Of a stretch of DNA of 64,000 nt, positions 16,942 through 28,859 are shown in pieces. The notes under the pieces were generated by a model, which ran no database searches, was not told the origin of the DNA, and was given only the letters and a program-made list of their open reading frames with translations. Location of the stretch: NCBI RefSeq assembly GCF_021726475.1, contig NZ_JAKJRU010000008.1:62001-126000 (forward strand), written 5' to 3'. Origin of the DNA: Pseudomonas oligotrophica. Its GTDB lineage: Bacteria > Pseudomonadota > Gammaproteobacteria > Pseudomonadales > Pseudomonadaceae. The position numbers were made by a program, and so were the translations under genes. The number at the start of each line of letters is the position of its first letter. The first letter of the stretch is position 1.

Positions 16942-17574
16942 TTAGCCGTTGGCGGATGGTGGGTATTGCAGAACGTGGGCTGCAAAGTCCATCAGCGAGA
17001 CGAAGCCGCACTGATCGGCTTTTCCTTCACGCTGTAGGTGGTAGCCCCGCATGCCTTGCCCAATTGGACCAAGCATATCGGCTTGCAACGTGTCACCGAT
17101 CATTGCGATAGCGGAGGCTTCGCAGCCAAGCTGTTCGATCATCTGACGATAGATTGCGGGCTCAGGCTTTATTGTCCCAACCTCAAAGCTCCATCCGTAA
17201 ACATCGAACGACGGCAGTAACAGTTTGGCCGGAATCGCATATGGGGCTGCGAGATTGGAGCACAACGCGAGATTCAGGCCGGCGTCCTTTAGCTGATTTA
17301 GCGACTCCAACGCATCATCGAAAAGGCGAACGCTGGCCAGCTCGGTGAAAAGGTCGCTTTCAAGGCTAGCTAACTCAGAGTTGCTCAACTGCGCACCGAA
17401 ATAATCGGCAGCTCCAGCCAAGCCCAGATTTCGAGTCATCAGAGTCCGTGCGTCATCCGGCCTTGGTGTTTTGCCCTGAAGCCGCAGGTTCTGCATCAGT
17501 TGGCGGAAAGGATGGCGGCGCTCACCTATCTGGAGAAGCGTGCCAAACACATCGAAAACTACTGCTTGTATCAT
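16942..17574 (-). CDS. HAD-superfamily hydrolase
   Basis: A 210-aa haloacid-dehalogenase-like hydrolase. Motif I is DVFGT with nucleophile D8; the usual second Asp is replaced by F10, as in 2-haloacid dehalogenases and some other HAD-IA members, which argues against a simple phosphatase. Motif II is LALCSN, motif III the Lys in GTIKPEPAIY, motif IV MIGDTLQADMLG. The cap inserts between motifs I and II (residues about 15-90). It stands alone between the CadR/exporter unit and the truncated tcmP. The substrate cannot be deduced from sequence. Confidence 0.82.
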   Translation of the reverse strand: MIQAVVFDVFGTLLQIGERRHPFRQLMQNLRLQGKTPRPDDARTLMTRNLGLAGAADYFGAQLSNSELASLESDLFTELASVRLFDDALESLNQLKDAGLNLALCSNLAAPYAIPAKLLLPSFDVYGWSFEVGTIKPEPAIYRQMIEQLGCEASAIAMIGDTLQADMLGPIGQGMRGYHLQREGKADQCGFVSLMDFAAHVLQYPPSANG

Positions 17575-18486: not shown

Positions 18487-18738
18487 ATCTCAGACCATCT
18501 ATCCACTCGTCAATACGCTCGTATCGTCAAAGGTTGGGTGAAAGCCATTGGCCCTGATCCAGCCCTGTATGGCATTCACACAATAAGACGTACGAAGGCA
18601 TCGCTGATCTATCGCAGGACGAAGAACCTGCGGGCAGTTCAACTGTTGCTCGGCCATACGAAGCTGGAGAGCACCGTTCGATATCTGGGGATTGAGGTCG
18701 ATGATGCCCTAGAGATGGCGGAACAGACCGAGGTTTGA
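18487..18738 (+). pseudogene. C-terminal fragment of a tyrosine recombinase
   Basis: An open frame gives STRQYARIVKGWVKAIG, then GIHTIRRTKASLIY, LLLGHTKLESTVRYL and a C-terminus ending EMAEQTEV, i.e. the HxxR box, second His and active-site Tyr of a tyrosine recombinase. The core Arg of box I and the whole N-terminal arm-binding domain are absent. The left edge coincides with the broken start of tcmP on the other strand, marking a deletion or recombination junction. An internal GTG at 18538 could start a 66-aa peptide, but it would not be an active recombinase. Confidence 0.8.
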
Positions 18739-22708: not shown

Positions 22709-23074
22709 TTACTGAAGCCAACTCTCCACCTTGTCGGCGCCGTGCTTTTCTTTCCAGGCTTTCAAAATCTTATGATTGCCACCCTTAGTCTCTACCACCT
22801 CTCCAGTTTCTGGGTTTTTGTAAACCTTAACTTGGCGCTGCCGACGAGGCGCTTGAGACGTCGGGGTGGCGCTGATGCTGGTGCGGCTGGGCTTCGGATC
22901 CAATATTGAAATAATTTCGCGCAGGCCTACGTCATATTGCCCCATCAAATTGCGGAGTTTTTCCTCGAACTCGATTTCGCGCTTGAGTTTGTCGTCATTC
23001 TTAAGAGCATCAAGCTGCTTTAGCTGGGCTGCGAGCTGGGCTTCTAGAGCTTTGAATTCGGCGAGTTTGGACAT
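22709..23074 (-). CDS. MvaT/MvaU-family H-NS-like nucleoid silencer
   Basis: A 121-aa MvaT-family DNA-binding protein. The N-terminal half is a coiled coil for oligomerisation (MSKLAEFKALEAQLAAQLKQ onward, rich in K/E/L). A Ser/Thr/Pro-rich linker leads to the C-terminal AT-rich-DNA-binding domain with KVYKNPETGEVVETKGG and NHKILKAWKEKHG. These proteins are pseudomonad analogues of H-NS that silence AT-rich foreign DNA. A copy on the island probably moderates expression of the island or of other islands; core paralogues are expected elsewhere in the genome. The ATG has the ribosome binding site AGAAGG. Confidence 0.93.
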   Translation of the reverse strand: MSKLAEFKALEAQLAAQLKQLDALKNDDKLKREIEFEEKLRNLMGQYDVGLREIISILDPKPSRTSISATPTSQAPRRQRQVKVYKNPETGEVVETKGGNHKILKAWKEKHGADKVESWLQ

Positions 23075-23426
23075 GGGTAACCTTCTGAGAACGAAACTGC
23101 TTTGTGTGTCTCAGTCTACCGTTTGGGCACAGAGGGAGAAAACTAAGGACCGACCGATTTCGCGAGTGATCCAGTCATCGAGAGGCTGGCAGGGATAGCG
23201 CTGCGGAGTGTTTGTCAGCCAGAGATGTGCGTAATTTCCTGACATATGAAGTGGTGGGTTCGCAGAATGGGAGGTGACCAAGCGGCGGCCGTTGCATAGA
23301 AACGTCGCGCATCCCGTAGAGGAAGCGGACGTGAGCAGGCTTCTTCCGCTTTAGCAGAGGTAGCCATGCATAGCATCGAAATTCGAGCTAGCCATTTACC
23401 TGCGGCAAATGAAGAAAGCTGCCTTT

Positions 23427-23632
23427 TTTGACAACAATGGCAGCCGCTTCGCGAAGGCAGTTGATCATTTTGGTCTTATTGCTCGGTCTCGCTCCACATT
23501 CGTTTCGCTTACCTGCAAACGCCCAAAATGCTCAACTGCCCCATACTTGAAGATTTCAAGTATGGGGTGCGGGGGCATACTTGAAGGAACGCTTCGCTGC
23601 TTCAAGTATGCCCCCGCAATTTTGTTGTCAAA
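23427..23632. repeat. Tandem-hairpin element with outer inverted repeats
   Basis: Three nested or tandem perfect dyads. The outer arms are TTTGACAACAA (23427-23437) and TTGTTGTCAAA (23622-23632). Hairpin A is CCCCATACTTGAA-GAT-TTCAAGTATGGGG (23539-23567, 13-bp stem, 3-base loop). Hairpin B has an 18-bp stem (23569-23586 with 23600-23617) with a 13-base loop. A and B share the core CATACTTGAA, so the arms can also pair with each other in alternative ways. Hairpin B is followed by AATTTTGTTGT. Unknown class: structured RNA, recombination site or a degenerate repeat element are all possible. Confidence 0.75.
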
Positions 23633-23901
23633 TCATAGCCGCCAGGCGTTGCCTGGCCGAAATAGCGATGGAGCAAAGAGACGTGGCTATCGCACTCATG
23701 AGCCTTGCCGTCCCGTAACTGACATCGAACAAAGTTGTTCGCTCTGGAGCGCTGGCCGAACCGTCTAGCGATGGTATAAGCGCATAAATGAGGCAGATGA
23801 AGTTACGTAAAAATGCTGTTCAAACGAGCTTTTATTGGTTATATAGATTTCACTTAACTGTCTGATATTTAACGAATTAAAGGAAATTATAACCGAAAAA
23901 G

Positions 23902-23923
23902 GCAGTGCCAGTTCTGGCACTGC
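23902..23923. repeat. Perfect 10-bp hairpin
   Basis: GCAGTGCCAG-TT-CTGGCACTGC with a 2-base loop, followed by further imperfect GC-rich palindromes to about 24000 (for example AATGGC...GCCATT). Not followed by a T-run, so probably not a terminator. Confidence 0.6.
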
Positions 23924-24101
23924 TGCTGCCAATGACGGCGCTAAAAACGCCTGTAATGGCGCTCTGTAGTGCCATTAGAGGCGTCAAGAGTGCCGGCAAT
24001 GACCTCCGATGGCGTGGTCTTCCAATTCTTAACGTGGCCAGAGTCCATACCGCGACATTCGCACCATTTGCTGCTGCACGCGTGTTGTATCACGACGTCT
24101 A

Positions 24102-24249
24102 TGCGACATGATCTGAATGTCGCAGTCTCGTCCTGTCACACGTGCGGCTTGCTGCAGCGGGTGGGTGTGAAAGGCCGCATAACTGCACTGCGTGCGTGTC
24201 ACATGTGGGGCTTATGACACGGTGTACTGCGACGCTCGGAAAGCGTCGC
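24102..24249. repeat. Cluster of inverted and direct repeats
   Basis: TGCGACAT-N7-ATGTCGCA (24102-24124) is a perfect 8-bp dyad. GTCACACGTGCGGCTT (24135-24150) and GTCACATGTGGGGCTT (24198-24213) are direct repeats differing at two positions, 63 bp apart. GCGACGCT-CGGAA-AGCGTCGC (24229-24249) is a perfect 8-bp hairpin. Clustered repeats of this kind beside recombinase genes could be accessory binding sites for the recombinase or an excision factor; this is inferred. Confidence 0.5.
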
Positions 24250-24439
24250 GGTTCCTATGTGTGACATGACTATCGCTTCGCGCTGCCGACTGTCACGGAA
24301 ATTCTAGTCGTAGTGTGTGGGCTGCTCTTACTGGCGGCGGATTGATCAGCAAAGTGGTCGTTGGATGGTTTCAGCGAGCGTCGCCCCCCTGAGTCAGTTG
24401 AACACTTGGTCTATGCGGCTGCGATACAGAACGAAAAAA

Positions 24440-24464
24440 GCCGCAGGGTTAGCTGCGGCCTTTT
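24440..24464. terminator. Bidirectional terminator next to recombinase gene
   Basis: GCCGCAG-GGTTAG-CTGCGGC with a T-run on the right (CTTTTATT) and an A-run on the left (AAAAAA), so it can stop transcription in both directions, including that from the recombinase gene ending at 24519. Confidence 0.8.
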
Positions 24465-24518
24465 ATTCATCCTGTCTCATAATCATCTCCAGGCGACGAT
24501 TGTTTTGAACGCTACGCG

Positions 24519-25778
24519 CTAGCAAGGCTTTTGCTTAGTTCTCCTTCCTCGCTTTCCGCGTCCGGCTTGGTTTGCGAGCAGGTTTTTAAAATGCTCCCAG
24601 CGGATCTGCTCGGTCTGTGCGTTGTATGTCAGTCCCCGTTCCATCTGCTCCAGTAATCGCAAACTCAGTGGCTGCTCCAAGTAGTGGTCTGCTGTGACTT
24701 CTGGAGCACCACCCTCATGGCCGAGCAGATAGGCAATGGTTGAAGGGGGTATACCTGACCGTTCAAGTCTCACGGCAAACGAGCGGCGGAAGCTTTTAAA
24801 ATTTAGACCACCATTTACGGCTGGCGGGCAGTGCTGACCGATGTATCCTGTCCCCGTGCACGGCCCGCAGAAAAACCGACTTGGGTCGCGGGAGTACAGG
24901 TGCTTCGGATCGAAGCTCAGCTCGTTGAAAAGCAGTGCATCGTTGCCTTCGGCCTGACGCCGTTCTTCTACGAATTTTAGAAAGCCCATCTCCACTAGCT
25001 TCGAGCAGATTGGGATCTGCCGGGCCGACGGCCCCGTCTTCAAAGACTTGTTGTAGCCATTATCGTTGATATCGATAAGGTCGACGCCGTGGACATCTTG
25101 GATCACATCATGCACACGTAGCTGGCAGAGCTCGTTAAGCCGCGCGCCGGTATAGAGCCCAAGCGGGAGCAACCAAAACCGATAGGGCTTGGCGTCCTGG
25201 TTGATTTTCGGCAGGTCGCCTGCGAGATACTTTCTGTAGGGCCAGCCTGAGAACATCTGATTCAGATTGCTATCCAGAAATGGCTTGGTGATTTCGGCGT
25301 GTTTTGTATTGCAGGTCGCGACTTTGATCGCCTCGGTAATCAGCTTGCTCTCAAGTGCTTCGTCCAGCATTCGATTGAACAACTGATAGTAGGTCGTGAG
25401 GTTTGCGCCTTTGCTACCCGACGCAGCGTTCTGCTTGAGTAACGACGGTAGCTGATCCTTCAGACGCTGTACGTCGGCCCGATCAAGCTCAGCAACTCGG
25501 CGGGTAGGATTATCTTGCGTCAGAGCGATTTTTAGTTTCTCCATCCGCGCTCGAAGCATGTGCTCGGATTTCCCTGCGTAATTGTTTTCTCGCAGAAAGC
25601 GGGACAGCGTTATGTCCATGAACTCGGTAAGCAAAGGAGAAGACTGAAAGCGGTTTATCGCATCCGTAATCGCTGAAATGTTTGCCAACGCGATTCGCAA
25701 GTGTTCTTCATGGCCGGGTTCGACGATAAGACTCAGGCCTTTGTAAAAAGGAATGGAGAGGGGGGCAGTTACATTCAT
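24519..25778 (-). CDS. Tyrosine recombinase 1 (island integrase, small)
   Basis: A 419-aa site-specific recombinase. The catalytic domain holds R213 (LYTGARLNELCQL), K247 (NKSLKTGPSARQIP), the box II residue R331 in KSFRRSF, H354 (LLGHEGG) and nucleophile Y366 (ADHYLE). The usual box II His of HxxR is Lys (K328), while the neighbouring recombinase has a normal HxxR. The catalytic core resembles that of recombinase 2 (FW-L-LGL-TGARL-ELCQLR in both), so they are paralogues. The N-terminal 200 residues are a DNA-binding arm. It starts from the ATG at 25778 with the upstream ribosome binding site TGAGGTATAT. Confidence 0.88.
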   Translation of the reverse strand: MNVTAPLSIPFYKGLSLIVEPGHEEHLRIALANISAITDAINRFQSSPLLTEFMDITLSRFLRENNYAGKSEHMLRARMEKLKIALTQDNPTRRVAELDRADVQRLKDQLPSLLKQNAASGSKGANLTTYYQLFNRMLDEALESKLITEAIKVATCNTKHAEITKPFLDSNLNQMFSGWPYRKYLAGDLPKINQDAKPYRFWLLPLGLYTGARLNELCQLRVHDVIQDVHGVDLIDINDNGYNKSLKTGPSARQIPICSKLVEMGFLKFVEERRQAEGNDALLFNELSFDPKHLYSRDPSRFFCGPCTGTGYIGQHCPPAVNGGLNFKSFRRSFAVRLERSGIPPSTIAYLLGHEGGAPEVTADHYLEQPLSLRLLEQMERGLTYNAQTEQIRWEHFKNLLANQAGRGKRGRRTKQKPC

Positions 25779-25940
25779 ATATACCTCACAGTGGGTGAGG
25801 CTTGAGATTATTACTGGATGGATAAACAGTCAAGATAATCTATTAGGATTTACCATGCGATAGTTTTTATTGACAACTTGTCAATAATCGCAAGATGAGC
25901 AAAAGGTAAGAGCGAGCCCCTACCTTTTATTAGCTGAATA

Positions 25941-28382
25941 TTATGCGTACGTTTTCCAGTGCCGCTTAGCAACCCGCACGCTGGGGAAGGGGGTGCCAAC
26001 CGGGCGACCGACATTGAAAACGCCCTGGCGTTCTCGTAACTCTTGATAGTGCCGGTAATGGATGTGTCCCAGCCCTAGCCCGAAATCGAGCTTGTCGAGC
26101 TCGTCTTTGAGCACGTCAGACGGATAGCAGTCGCCGTACCCACCGGTGGTACTTTTATCCGAGTGGCCTACAAGCGCTTTGGCTTTCGCCAGGTCAAGGT
26201 TCTGCCTGCGAAATTGATTGATAAAGGTGTGGCGCAGACCGTGGTACGTCAGGCCGTCATCTCCCAGGCCGCAAAGCCCAAGGTAACCCCGGCTAATCTG
26301 GCTTGAGCCGAGAAACCAACGGCTCGCAACATGCCCGGGAGAAAGGTCGCCGTATACCCGAATATTGTCGAAAAGCGGAGCCTTGCCGTCTCGCTCGACA
26401 GCTTCCAGGCGTGCTTGATGAAACTCCAGGAAGCCCGACTCGATAAGCTGCCGGTGAATCGGCACCAACCTTTCCGAATCGGACGTCTTCAGCTGTTTCG
26501 ACCCGCTTCGATTGATGCTGATGAGCCAGACGCCGAGTTCTTGCCGAATGTCTTCGAGCCGTAGCTGGCACAGCTCACTTAGCCTTGCGCCTGTAAAAAG
26601 GCCAAGCAGCGGCAGCCAAAACTTGTAGTCATCCAAGCGCCAGCGCGGCGGCGTGGTCAGTGTGTAGGCCGGACCGTGAAGAAGTTTCTCGATCTGGCTT
26701 GGGCTATACGTGCGCTTCCTCGGCGCCTCGGCTCCTTTGGTGCTGAATGCCAATCCGGCCGCGATATTTTCGGTGATGTAACCCTGATCATGAGCGTAGG
26801 TGACAAGGGCCCTTGCCAGCTCAAAGAACTTTTTCGCGGTGCGTGGATTGATCGGCTCGAATTTCCCGTCGCTGATGATCTTGCTCAGCGGCTGATTACG
26901 GGTGGCGCGAAGGCGGTGCCGGTTCTTCGGATAGCTACGCAGATGATCGCGTAGCGTGTTGAATTCAGCGCGAGTCAGCGTCTCGACTTGCCGGTGCCCG
27001 CCAAGCAGCTCGCACAGGCCTTCCAGGCGGGCCTTTGCGGTAATGCGAGTCCGCGGGTTAGCCCAGGCGCCTTCACGAATTTGCCGTTCTTCGTATTCCT
27101 TTACCAATGCTGCGAGGCTCAGCCCTGCGTTTGGACTGCTCGTCGGCGAGACAATGCGTTCGCTGACCGAAGGTTGGGTAAAGAGGGTTTCAAGCTTCGC
27201 TTTCTGCGCGTCGGGCAGAACGCTCCCGAGCGCATTCAGCAACGCGAGCGTGCCTGGATCCTGTGGCGGTGCCACAGGATCTGTCGGCGAGTTCAGCTCC
27301 GGAATCGTCTGCATAGGCTCGGTGGTTGCAGCAGAACCCAACATCCGCCGAACCAGGTCACCGATTTCCTGCATGGCTTGGGCGTAAGGATCTTCGTGAT
27401 CGTCTTCCTGAAAGTAACGCAACAGCACCTTATCAACCTTCTGCAGCGTATACGTCAGCATGAGGACCGCAATGATGATGGAGCTAGTGAGCAGCTCAAC
27501 CCGAAAGCTTTTCTTTTCTCTCAGATGCGCTTTCATGCAGAGCGGATCAAGTTCGATAAGCATCACATAAAGCCCCGACTCCTCCTGCACCAAGAGCGCT
27601 CGATCAATGATGCGGAGCTTCAGATGCATCGCGTTGGCTTGCTGAAGATGAAAATGCAAAGCTTGCCGAGATTGCGGTAGTGCTTGGGGGATGTGCATGA
27701 GATTCCGACCCTGGTCTGGGCGGGCATGGCACAGGTATTCGTAAAGCGTCATCGCTGCAAACGCAGGAGATTCTTTCGAATAGCGCCCTGGAGAGGGTGG
27801 GACGGTCTCGAGTACATCAAGGGCAGCGTAAATGTACCGGGCAGCGTCGCTCGCCACGTTCTGGTTGCTGGTTCCGAGCGGCCAGTCAAAGCGTACGAAC
27901 CCAACGCCAAGCGCTTTCACCAGTGCGGGCGTGGGTGTTAGTGCGAAAAAGATTTCGCCCCCTGGCTCGTGGCTATAGAGCACCACACGCTCGGCACTCT
28001 CTTTCATCATGCGAGCGTGGGCGACCGAGAGATCTTGGTTCGCGAGCTTCATTGGCGACGGGCGTACTTTCCAAACTCGGTCGGCGAATTTGAGTGCTTC
28101 CGCTACCGCCAAGTGAAACCTTTGGAGGTCAGCCAGCAGGCGGTCAGAAAAGAGCTCGACGTAGTGCTCGGTCGCCTTCGCAAGAAACTGCTCGAAAGAG
28201 GCGTTCAAATACCTTGCGAGGTCACGTGCAAGCGCTTCGTCGTGGCTGAGCGACCACCGGATTTGCGCAGGCAGTTTCGGGTTGGCCGCGAAATGCTTCG
28301 GGAATGTGAGGTAGTACTGGAAGCCAGTGTTGGCTTGATAGACGAGGTGCGGAACACCTGTTTTGCTTTGGCGCTTGGACAT
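25941..28382 (-). CDS. int: Tyrosine recombinase 2 (large, ssrA-adjacent island integrase)
   Basis: A very large site-specific recombinase of 813 aa, nearly double the usual size. The catalytic domain is C-terminal: R600 in GLFTGARLSELC, the Lys of SKQLKTSDSERLVP, the HxxR box TYHGLRHTF, second His in VGHSDKST and a Tyr in TGGYGDCYP. The N-terminal 400 residues begin MSKRQSKTGVPHLVYQANTG and hold a region I do not recognise beyond the start, which resembles DUF6538-like N-termini of other island integrases. The ATG at 28382 is preferred over upstream in-frame starts because it begins this conserved motif and follows AAAAGG. The gene ends its 5' side about 100 bp from the tmRNA 3' end, so it is the likely integrase for ssrA. 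Confidence 0.9.
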   Translation of the reverse strand: MSKRQSKTGVPHLVYQANTGFQYYLTFPKHFAANPKLPAQIRWSLSHDEALARDLARYLNASFEQFLAKATEHYVELFSDRLLADLQRFHLAVAEALKFADRVWKVRPSPMKLANQDLSVAHARMMKESAERVVLYSHEPGGEIFFALTPTPALVKALGVGFVRFDWPLGTSNQNVASDAARYIYAALDVLETVPPSPGRYSKESPAFAAMTLYEYLCHARPDQGRNLMHIPQALPQSRQALHFHLQQANAMHLKLRIIDRALLVQEESGLYVMLIELDPLCMKAHLREKKSFRVELLTSSIIIAVLMLTYTLQKVDKVLLRYFQEDDHEDPYAQAMQEIGDLVRRMLGSAATTEPMQTIPELNSPTDPVAPPQDPGTLALLNALGSVLPDAQKAKLETLFTQPSVSERIVSPTSSPNAGLSLAALVKEYEERQIREGAWANPRTRITAKARLEGLCELLGGHRQVETLTRAEFNTLRDHLRSYPKNRHRLRATRNQPLSKIISDGKFEPINPRTAKKFFELARALVTYAHDQGYITENIAAGLAFSTKGAEAPRKRTYSPSQIEKLLHGPAYTLTTPPRWRLDDYKFWLPLLGLFTGARLSELCQLRLEDIRQELGVWLISINRSGSKQLKTSDSERLVPIHRQLIESGFLEFHQARLEAVERDGKAPLFDNIRVYGDLSPGHVASRWFLGSSQISRGYLGLCGLGDDGLTYHGLRHTFINQFRRQNLDLAKAKALVGHSDKSTTGGYGDCYPSDVLKDELDKLDFGLGLGHIHYRHYQELRERQGVFNVGRPVGTPFPSVRVAKRHWKTYA

Positions 28383-28443
28383 GATGGCATACCTTTTGGA
28401 TTCACAGACGGACTGTGAGTAATCCAATGCCATCAAATCTGGC

Positions 28444-28472
28444 CTGAAACCCGCGTTCTAGACGGGTTTCAG
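28444..28472 (-). terminator. Hairpin just beyond tmRNA 3' end
   Basis: CTGAAACCCG (28444-28453) pairs with CGGGTTTCAG (28463-28472), a perfect 10-bp stem, 9 bp downstream of the tmRNA CCA end on its transcript. No strong T-run follows. It lies on the island side of the junction and may replace the native ssrA terminator. Confidence 0.6.
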
Positions 28473-28480
28473 TGTTGAAT

Positions 28481-28859
28481 TGGTGGAGCCGGGGGGATTT
28501 GAACCCCCGTCCGCCAGCTCTCCGCTATTGGTTCTACATGCTTAGCCAGATCTACTGAGTTAACTCCGCGCCGCCCGATTGGCAGGGTGCTTGGAGCGAG
28601 CTGTATGAGATTTAGCCGTTACGTCTACAGCGAACTTGGCGGCGATCCTGTTCTGTCTGACGGTCATTTCGGGTTTACAGGCATCCCCTAGTGACCGCTG
28701 GAGCCGAAGCTACCAGATGAAGGTTAGGCGGCTAGCGCGTACCCTTCGTAGTTGTCGTCGTTGGCAACTATAGGTTTGCAACAGTTTATTTACGAGTTCT
28801 GTTACCAACTCGGCATGCCCCTCAAGTTTCGTTACCGGCGTCGAATCCTAATCGGCCCC
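28481..28859 (-). ncRNA. ssrA: Transfer-messenger RNA (tmRNA)
   Basis: On the minus strand the gene begins GGGGCCGATTAGGATTCGACG and ends with the encoded tRNA-like acceptor and CCACCA; the T-arm GGTTCAAATCC is intact. The tag reading frame (28724-28765) starts at the resume codon GCC after TAGTT and encodes ANDDNYEGYALAA then TAA. tmRNA acts with SmpB (encoded at 38329) to rescue stalled ribosomes and tag the product for proteolysis. The 3' end is a common integration site, and here it borders the recombinase genes directly. The tag is longer than the ANDDNYALAA of P. aeruginosa by the three residues EGY. Confidence 0.97.

Follow-up and report, generated by a model that had tools for sequence, protein, structure and literature searches.

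Genomic islands inserted directly behind the tmRNA gene are known from Pseudomonas. As published, the islands I23, I44 and I55 have a 14-bp direct repeat (CCCCGGCTCCACCA), variable cargo and no genes for autonomous transfer; they are described with one integrase (IntY) plus AlpA, and I55 is moved by a jumbo phage, its excision needing its own integrase (PMC12595487). Here we describe a 64-kb stretch of the Pseudomonas oligotrophica genome (C19:62001-126000 in contig coordinates, hereafter the window; genome of 3.98 Mb in 20 contigs, 99.98% complete) in which two tyrosine recombinase genes, IntL and IntS, adjoin the tmRNA gene, ssrA, and a third, IntX, lies in the same island. Genomes with near-identical recombinases are mostly named Stutzerimonas, and on that ground the host is treated here as one. 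From the comparisons below, which use loci and genomes numbered with L and G, we somewhat favor the reading that this is a 57-kb site-specific ssrA island moved by a multi-recombinase module, with IntL and IntS probably acting jointly.

Like I23, I44 and I55, the island has an attachment (att) core that ends in CCCCGGCTCCACCA. Unlike those islands as described (PMC12595487), it carries IntL, IntS and, at a distance from them, IntX, and no AlpA was found among the 32 open reading frames (ORFs) scanned with Pfam (IntL, IntS and 30 others) out of 41 called in the island by a simple script. GInt islands also combine several tyrosine recombinases with variable cargo, as here, and all four gin genes are required for their movement (PMC5385486). 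In that description ginABCD are contiguous, GinC lacks the first arginine and GinD is small, and pseudomonad GInts sit at an ABC-transporter gene with imperfect repeats of 10-11 nt. Here, in contrast, two adjacent recombinase genes are followed by non-coding DNA and an MvaT-like gene, and IntL, IntS and IntX all retain the first catalytic arginine, which sets them apart from GInt by description.

Strand-biased circularizing elements (SEs) are described as intA-tfp-intB plus srap with a non-catalytic Tfp, imperfect terminal inverted repeats, a strand-biased circle, a 6-bp footprint and no empty site (PMC10214605). SEs, Tn554 and the island have in common that a large catalytic tyrosine recombinase and an ordinary one occur together, the likeness to Tn554 being one of sizes as described in PMC10214605, with no protein comparison behind it. 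However, no gene lies between IntL and IntS, which are directly adjacent across a 162-bp gap, and the att core at ssrA is a direct repeat of 23 identical bp. RIT elements, finally, have three tyrosine recombinases in a row within about 3.5 kb, the genes overlapping by a few bases (PMC3414803). Three recombinases in a row also occur in the L061-type trio, whereas in the island no genes overlap, IntX is on the opposite strand about 26 kb away from IntS, the cargo is large and the specificity is for ssrA. By analogy, we read the module as working like the Tn554, GInt and SE systems, yet it departs from GInt, SE and RIT descriptions on the points compared.

The island and its ssrA target

The features of the ssrA end, and the distant IntX, are as follows.

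28481 to 28859, minus strand: ssrA (tmRNA), the integration target (ARAGORN; Rfam RF00023, 192 bits)
28481 to 28503, minus strand: right att core TTCAAATCCCCCCGGCTCCACCA, with a partner copy at C19:33531-33553 (window -28469 to -28447) and a putative T-loop crossover
28383 to 28480, minus strand: ssrA-IntL leader with two hairpins, the second predicted to sequester the IntL ribosome-binding site and AUG (folding and covariation)
25941 to 28382, minus strand: IntL, large tyrosine recombinase of 813 aa (PF00589 above cut-off)
25867 to 25887, no strand assigned: palindrome TTATTGACAAGTTGTCAATAA between IntL and IntS, a candidate operator that overlies a -35-like TTGACA (comparison of 16 loci)
24519 to 25778, minus strand: IntS, tyrosine recombinase of 419 aa with the catalytic set R-K-K-R-H-Y (PF00589 above cut-off)
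C19:59665-60558 (window -2335 to -1442), strand opposite to IntS: IntX, 297 aa (profile matches)

The first-pass annotation of this stretch had placed the ssrA 3' end at 28481, followed by a hairpin and two minus-strand recombinases of 813 and 419 aa; ARAGORN and Rfam, PF00589 and the leader fold described below all agree. Its description of the DNA left of ssrA as AT-rich and accessory also stands, G+C being about 0.50-0.60 to the left versus 0.65-0.73 to the right, with recognizable cargo by Pfam. It had seen no second tmRNA end in the window, where we likewise find none at up to three mismatches in 20 bases, and had placed the far att site left of position 1. The direct-repeat search that it proposed located that site: the 26-base ssrA 3' end has one further copy in the genome, on the same strand at C19:33531-33556 (from window -28469), with one mismatch in 26. 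Because of this far repeat, we put the island length at about 56.95 kb, of which 28.5 kb lie left of the window. It reaches far beyond the left edge of the annotated stretch (24102-28859). An integrase beside the tmRNA 3' end and a direct repeat at the far boundary, two marks of tRNA/tmRNA islands, are both present.

The 23-bp core TTCAAATCCCCCCGGCTCCACCA is identical at both island ends, as a direct repeat. Left of the core the bases differ between the two copies, and right of it they restore ssrA. Since the region right of TTCAAAT is identical on both sides, the island restores ssrA. Strand exchange probably falls within this 7-bp T-loop segment, TTCAAAT, a place that we take to belong to the T-loop class of tRNA-gene sites.

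Across 56 Stutzerimonas genomes, a second att core was present in 18 of the 21 with full-length IntL (exceptions G004, G006 and G019) versus 7 of the 35 others. Five single islands between two cores were measured and span 57-82 kb (G000; G023, 82 kb; G029 and G033, 72 kb each; G036, 61 kb). The 30-bp left arm just inside the island is identical in G000, G023, G033 and G036, and G029 and G003 have another arm in common. Beyond the left core, a terminator-like hairpin resembles the one behind ssrA in the island-free G030. Relatives with the same recombinases at ssrA and no cargo, which the first-pass annotation had named as evidence against an island, were not met among these five islands, in a check that was non-exhaustive; its other refuting outcome, a far boundary with no ssrA repeat, is ruled out by the copy at C19:33531-33556. 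Two further genomes, G015 and G016, have a second core 5.6 and 6.1 kb from the first and no IntL match at the site; smaller, different elements may use the same ssrA site there.

The IntL-IntS pair and its control

IntL is 813 aa long from its ATG, or 831 aa from an upstream TTG. The similar recombinase core reported at first pass is evident, with IntL and IntS 31% identical over 324 aa. The aligned R, K, HxxR, H and Y positions, which we take to be the tyrosine-recombinase catalytic residues, are all retained in IntL. IntS has K at the first place of box II (KSxR; R in L064), presumably a tolerated substitution. A model of the IntL core-binding domain matches lambda Int (best Z 13.4, root-mean-square deviation 2.0, 101 residues), and the whole-IntL model is poor in the catalytic domain (mean predicted local distance difference test score, pLDDT, 61). 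The N-terminal region of about 415 aa was modeled with moderate confidence (pLDDT 73) and had no PDB match at E <= 0.001, an absence that is no evidence for a new fold.

The two genes are tightly linked. Of the 56 Stutzerimonas genomes, 21 have a full-length IntL, G028 and G043 have it split in two, and G017, G021 and G040 retain a fragment; IntS follows in 21 of 21 full-length cases, truncated in G003 and cut by the contig end in G014 and G037. Among 398 Pseudomonadaceae genomes, all 34 IntS matches at E <= 1e-90 have IntL on the same contig (interrupted in two); below that level, strongly diverged pairs occur in G481 and G531. A separate sample of 390 genomes of the order gave full-length IntL at E <= 1e-60 only in the window's own genome, with partial relatives of 623-636 aa in two more. 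Outside Stutzerimonas the pair adjoins tmRNA in L140, L143, L145, L146 and L149, as well as in the strongly diverged L150, and tRNA-Gly(CCC) in L147 and L148; for L139, L141, L142, L144 and L151, no gene of either kind was found in the stretch covered. The ratio of nonsynonymous to synonymous substitution rates (dN/dS) ranges from 0.04 to 0.07 in IntS and from 0.05 to 0.08 in IntL over four comparisons (own Nei-Gojobori script), so that both genes are, by this measure, under purifying selection and strong constraint. Their pairwise distances also correlate (Mantel r 0.965, p 1e-4, 10 loci, uncorrected for shared ancestry). These comparisons show a conserved pair, catalytically equipped as judged by its residues, mostly beside ssrA. 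Among the top literature matches (titles and abstract openings) we found no published description of the pair, which is not proof of absence.

Elsewhere, IntL had no phage match at E <= 1e-20, and its plasmid matches were only of 27%, in two Azospirillum records; IntS matched 16 plasmid records at E <= 1e-5, none of which spans 80% of it. Near IntS, genes for a PF03432 relaxase and NikA/MobC-like proteins were seen in L147 (8787-10546, at tRNA-Gly) and L149 (8939-10509, at ssrA), and a protein with a phage GPA replication domain lies behind IntS in L149 and L064.

Two adjacent recombinases had been regarded at first pass as uncommon, and one of them as possibly redundant. The pair is no peculiarity of this strain: it is a conserved module, with co-occurrence in 34 of 34 cases and strong constraint. 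A redundant second recombinase was rejected on the co-occurrence and dN/dS. That IntS is a redundant or decaying copy of IntL, as its truncation in G003 would suggest, is very improbable given also its retained catalytic residues.

Between ssrA and IntL, the 98-base leader with 13 coding bases (111 nt) folds at -46.1 kcal/mol (z -5.8), matched by 0 of 200 shuffles. In 16 single folds the IntL start adjoins or falls within the base of the second helix, though the arm sequences vary. Over 13 distinct rows, 13 of 31 leader pairs changed on both sides versus 6.5 in shuffles, and 0 of 500 shuffles reached 13. In the leader structure 84% of cells pair versus 32-43% when it is slid, a test biased toward the unslid structure by its origin in the fold of the window itself; four divergent rows appear misaligned and weigh against the structure in it. 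RNAalifold on a MAFFT leader alignment gave 22 pairs, 11 with changes on both sides, and missed part of the second hairpin, at which the four divergent rows appear out of register, so the leader was scored through single folds and a stated structure. Judged from folding and covariation, a covarying RNA structure between ssrA and IntL sequesters the IntL start codon.

The IntL-IntS gap has its own candidate control site. A palindrome of the type ATTGACAAnTTGTCAAT is exact in 9 of the 16 loci scored, several of them close relatives, imperfect by eye in six more and absent from L149. Terminator-like hairpins between the genes were also noted by eye in several loci. IntL and IntS are therefore probably under separate control.

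Such control bears on a rather unlikely alternative, namely that IntL alone integrates and excises the island and that IntS acts at a different step, for instance to resolve dimers or tandem islands or to direct excision. The palindromic promoter region of IntS and the terminator-like hairpins mean that the two could be expressed apart, and in L147 and L148 the genes themselves lie about 2.2-2.5 kb apart. Tandem islands at ssrA also seem to exist, since the pair adjoins a partial att copy instead of a whole ssrA in G008, G054 and G028. On the other hand, no separate IntS site was identified, and the pair is linked across genera with divergence in parallel. We continue to prefer joint action of IntL and IntS.

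IntX and the block behind IntS

IntX is a weaker family member by profile, with a PF00589 match at E 4e-4, below cut-off, and matches to four solved tyrosine-recombinase sequences at E 3e-4 to 5e-3; R, K, R, H and Y are conserved in its alignment, and dN/dS is 0.10-0.14 (three comparisons). An IntX match of any kind at E <= 0.001 occurs in 26 of the 56 Stutzerimonas genomes, and a full or near-full relative of at least 65% identity in 22. Of the 20 genomes whose pair is intact, 19 have such a relative, compared with 3 of the 36 others (Fisher p 7e-11, uncorrected for ancestry). The sole intact-pair genome lacking it, G019, is assembled in about 400 contigs, and the three others with it are G028 (interrupted IntL), G047 (IntS remnant) and G050 (265-kb plasmid); G040, with an IntL fragment and a 43-aa IntX fragment, was scored as lacking it.

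Might IntX be a passenger, in itself a separate small mobile unit that frequently inserts into these islands and has no part in their movement? We regard this as possible, if doubtful. Homologues stand alone on a chromosome, on the 265-kb plasmid and on plasmids of about 3.2 kb, and G047 and G010 have two or three copies. Moreover, 12 of 19 genomes searched by profile have no IntX and 7 do, all 19 carrying the pair or its remains; six of the 12 are Stutzerimonas whose pair has decayed, is fragmentary or is poorly assembled, the remaining six being other genomes. Against a passenger stand the 19 of 20 co-occurrences and the position of IntX, which lies between two att cores in seven genomes (G000, G008, G023, G028, G029, G033 and G036) and on the core's island side in five more (G020, G026, G027, G037 and G041; no far core was found in G006). 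In addition, IntL, IntS and IntX are contiguous on one strand in five Halopseudomonas-type loci (L139, L140, L143, L144 and L146), and DNA related to the IntX upstream region is kept behind IntS. We return to IntX as probably an accessory partner whose gene ancestrally lay just behind IntS and has since been relocated in most Stutzerimonas islands.

No relative of IntX turned up in phages. A 144-aa protein (C19:58661-59095, minus strand), divergent from IntX, is conserved next to it in several loci and missing there in others, and had no Pfam or NCBIfam match.

The DNA kept behind IntS contains the following features.

24102 to 24301, no strand assigned: diverged array built of TGYGACA/TGTCRCA half-sites, some of them on a 16-bp lattice (near-regular in relatives L142, L145 and L081)
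23426 to 24208, minus strand: non-coding block, parts of which are homologous to the DNA immediately upstream of stand-alone IntX genes (local comparison)
23568 to 23618, no strand assigned: second, longer hairpin with the same CATACTTGAA core (sequence scan)
23539 to 23567, no strand assigned: palindrome CCCCATACTTGAA-N3-TTCAAGTATGGGG, of a type recurring near IntX genes (sequence scan)

A repeat cluster beside IntS had been reported at first pass, and it resolves into the diverged array at 24102-24301 and the palindromes at 23539-23618. Within 700 bp behind IntS the window has six half-sites, against a shuffle maximum of three. L142 and L145 (behind IntS) and L081 (about 2.9 kb behind) have 17-19 alternating TGCGACA/TGTCGCA half-sites, mostly in 16-bp steps (shuffle maximum four). 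Three or four GTGACA hexamers at nearly constant positions are found in L045, L051, L052, L055, L056 and L057, of which the four tested have at most two sites by the stricter half-site pattern. Behind IntX in L061 the half-sites form the palindrome GTCGCATAATGCGAC, which recurs at intervals of roughly 110-120 bp. The stand-alone IntX relatives in L102, L104, L105, L113 and L153 also have arrays upstream. None was found upstream of those in L103, L161, L162 and L163, in several other loci including L063, L065 and L149-L151, or on the 3.1-3.2 kb plasmids, and a search with the bare 7-mer half-site returned noise only. Controls were 100 first-order resamplings per locus for the arrays and a 65.5 kb background for the palindromes; both sets of counts are descriptive, because the patterns were defined after being seen.

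By small local comparison, from which all E-values for this block against IntX upstream DNA derive, 23426-24208 resembles the DNA upstream of stand-alone IntX in L102 (61%, E 4e-18), in L113, L104, L105 and L153 (E 1e-8 to 1e-6) and in others down to E 1e-3. It also resembles the block behind IntS in L142 (68%, E 3e-66), and 23115-24500 had no match on plasmids. A scan of 37 records for the CCATACTTGA palindrome, CCATACTYGA-N-TCRAGTATGG, found it in 18. In eight of these it lies behind IntS, and in ten no more than about 400 bp from IntX, the 3.2-kb plasmid pPDDCC3357-6 being one of the ten. The background lacks it, as do 19 records including pPS1M3, L113, L146, L153 and the island's relocated IntX. 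By these matches, the repeat cluster is a decayed array with palindromes and is related to what lies upstream of some IntX genes that stand alone. The stand-alone relatives with arrays in L102, L104, L105 and L113 have a common setting, whose proteins include a methyltransferase, a helix-turn-helix regulator, a P22 antirepressor-like protein and DUF6957; they may represent a separate element family.

Cargo, proposed movement and significance

The element is a metal-resistance island. By Pfam, its cargo includes a heavy-metal P-type ATPase, CusB/CusF-like proteins, RND efflux parts, a multicopper oxidase, two-component regulators, cation efflux proteins, OprD, UmuDC-like genes, a SRAP protein and an MvaT-like silencer.

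1 to 22589, no strand assigned: right part of the cargo, with metal efflux (RND and cation efflux family), OprD porin, sensor kinase, UmuDC-like genes and SRAP (Pfam)

The scanned ORFs include no relaxase, and PF03432, the relaxase family searched genome-wide, gave no match in the genome. The MvaT-like xenogeneic silencer (22709-23074, minus strand) adjoins the recombinase module; copies 92-98% identical occur in 11 of 40 related loci searched, and L080 has a 42% copy. Within the cargo, a 66-aa fragment (18538-18738, plus strand) matches the integrase C-terminal domain PF00589 just below cut-off and is, by that match, a remnant of another recombinase. Two HAD-family hydrolases, both of 210 aa, lie at the left island end (C19:33967-34599) and in the cargo (16942-17574).

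We propose that IntL and IntS together would integrate and excise the island at the ssrA att core. Insertion would place IntL behind the ssrA promoter, separated from the native ssrA terminator, and the structured leader would conceal its start codon in read-through transcripts. The palindromic operator would allow separate control of IntS. With the leader hiding the IntL start and the operator controlling IntS, synthesis of both enzymes could therefore be gated. IntX would have an accessory or second-site role. Its gene would originally have followed IntS directly and, in most Stutzerimonas islands, would have been relocated within the island, leaving DNA related to its upstream region behind IntS. 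For transfer between cells, the best precedent by analogy is the jumbo-phage-moved Pseudomonas tmRNA islands as described in PMC12595487.

Several points weigh against this proposal, for which the whole case for movement by the module is sequence evidence. The gene beyond the left core (C19:30817) is not near ssrA in relatives (about 446 kb away in G003), which leaves the att repeat and the terminator-like sequence, and not gene synteny, to define the left flank. Being near-palindromic in appearance, the att core need not by itself demand two different recombinases. One of five leader measures, further pair types, is within chance (50 of 500 shuffles). Below the E 1e-90 level, IntS fragments occur without IntL in G047 (152 aa) and at a second place in G029 (134 aa), and neither the Mantel test of IntL/IntS distances nor the Fisher test for IntX corrects for shared ancestry. 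Finally, the 12 profile-searched genomes without IntX count here as well, as do the relocated Stutzerimonas IntX genes of L012, L107, L108, L111 and L172, which have no palindrome nearby.

A two-layered arrangement, which we hold to be improbable, would assign IntL and IntS to ssrA, and IntX with the array and palindrome block to an internal site that loads palindrome-bearing circles as cargo. If true, the block would be an integron-like loading dock not built from IntI and attC, with the 3.2-kb plasmid pPDDCC3357-6, bearing an IntX homologue and the palindrome, as a candidate circle.

Returning to joint action of IntL and IntS, the comparisons suggest that several enzymes, not one, move this island family. 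The published tmRNA islands compared here, as described in PMC12595487, have a single integrase; a linked large and ordinary pair at a tmRNA or tRNA site connects such islands to Tn554, SEs and GInts. The IntL-IntS islands would offer a clean case for testing why several recombinases are involved. The covarying leader suggests how an island behind a transcribed RNA gene could avoid integrase synthesis by read-through, and the block behind IntS would be a conserved non-coding module with a testable function.

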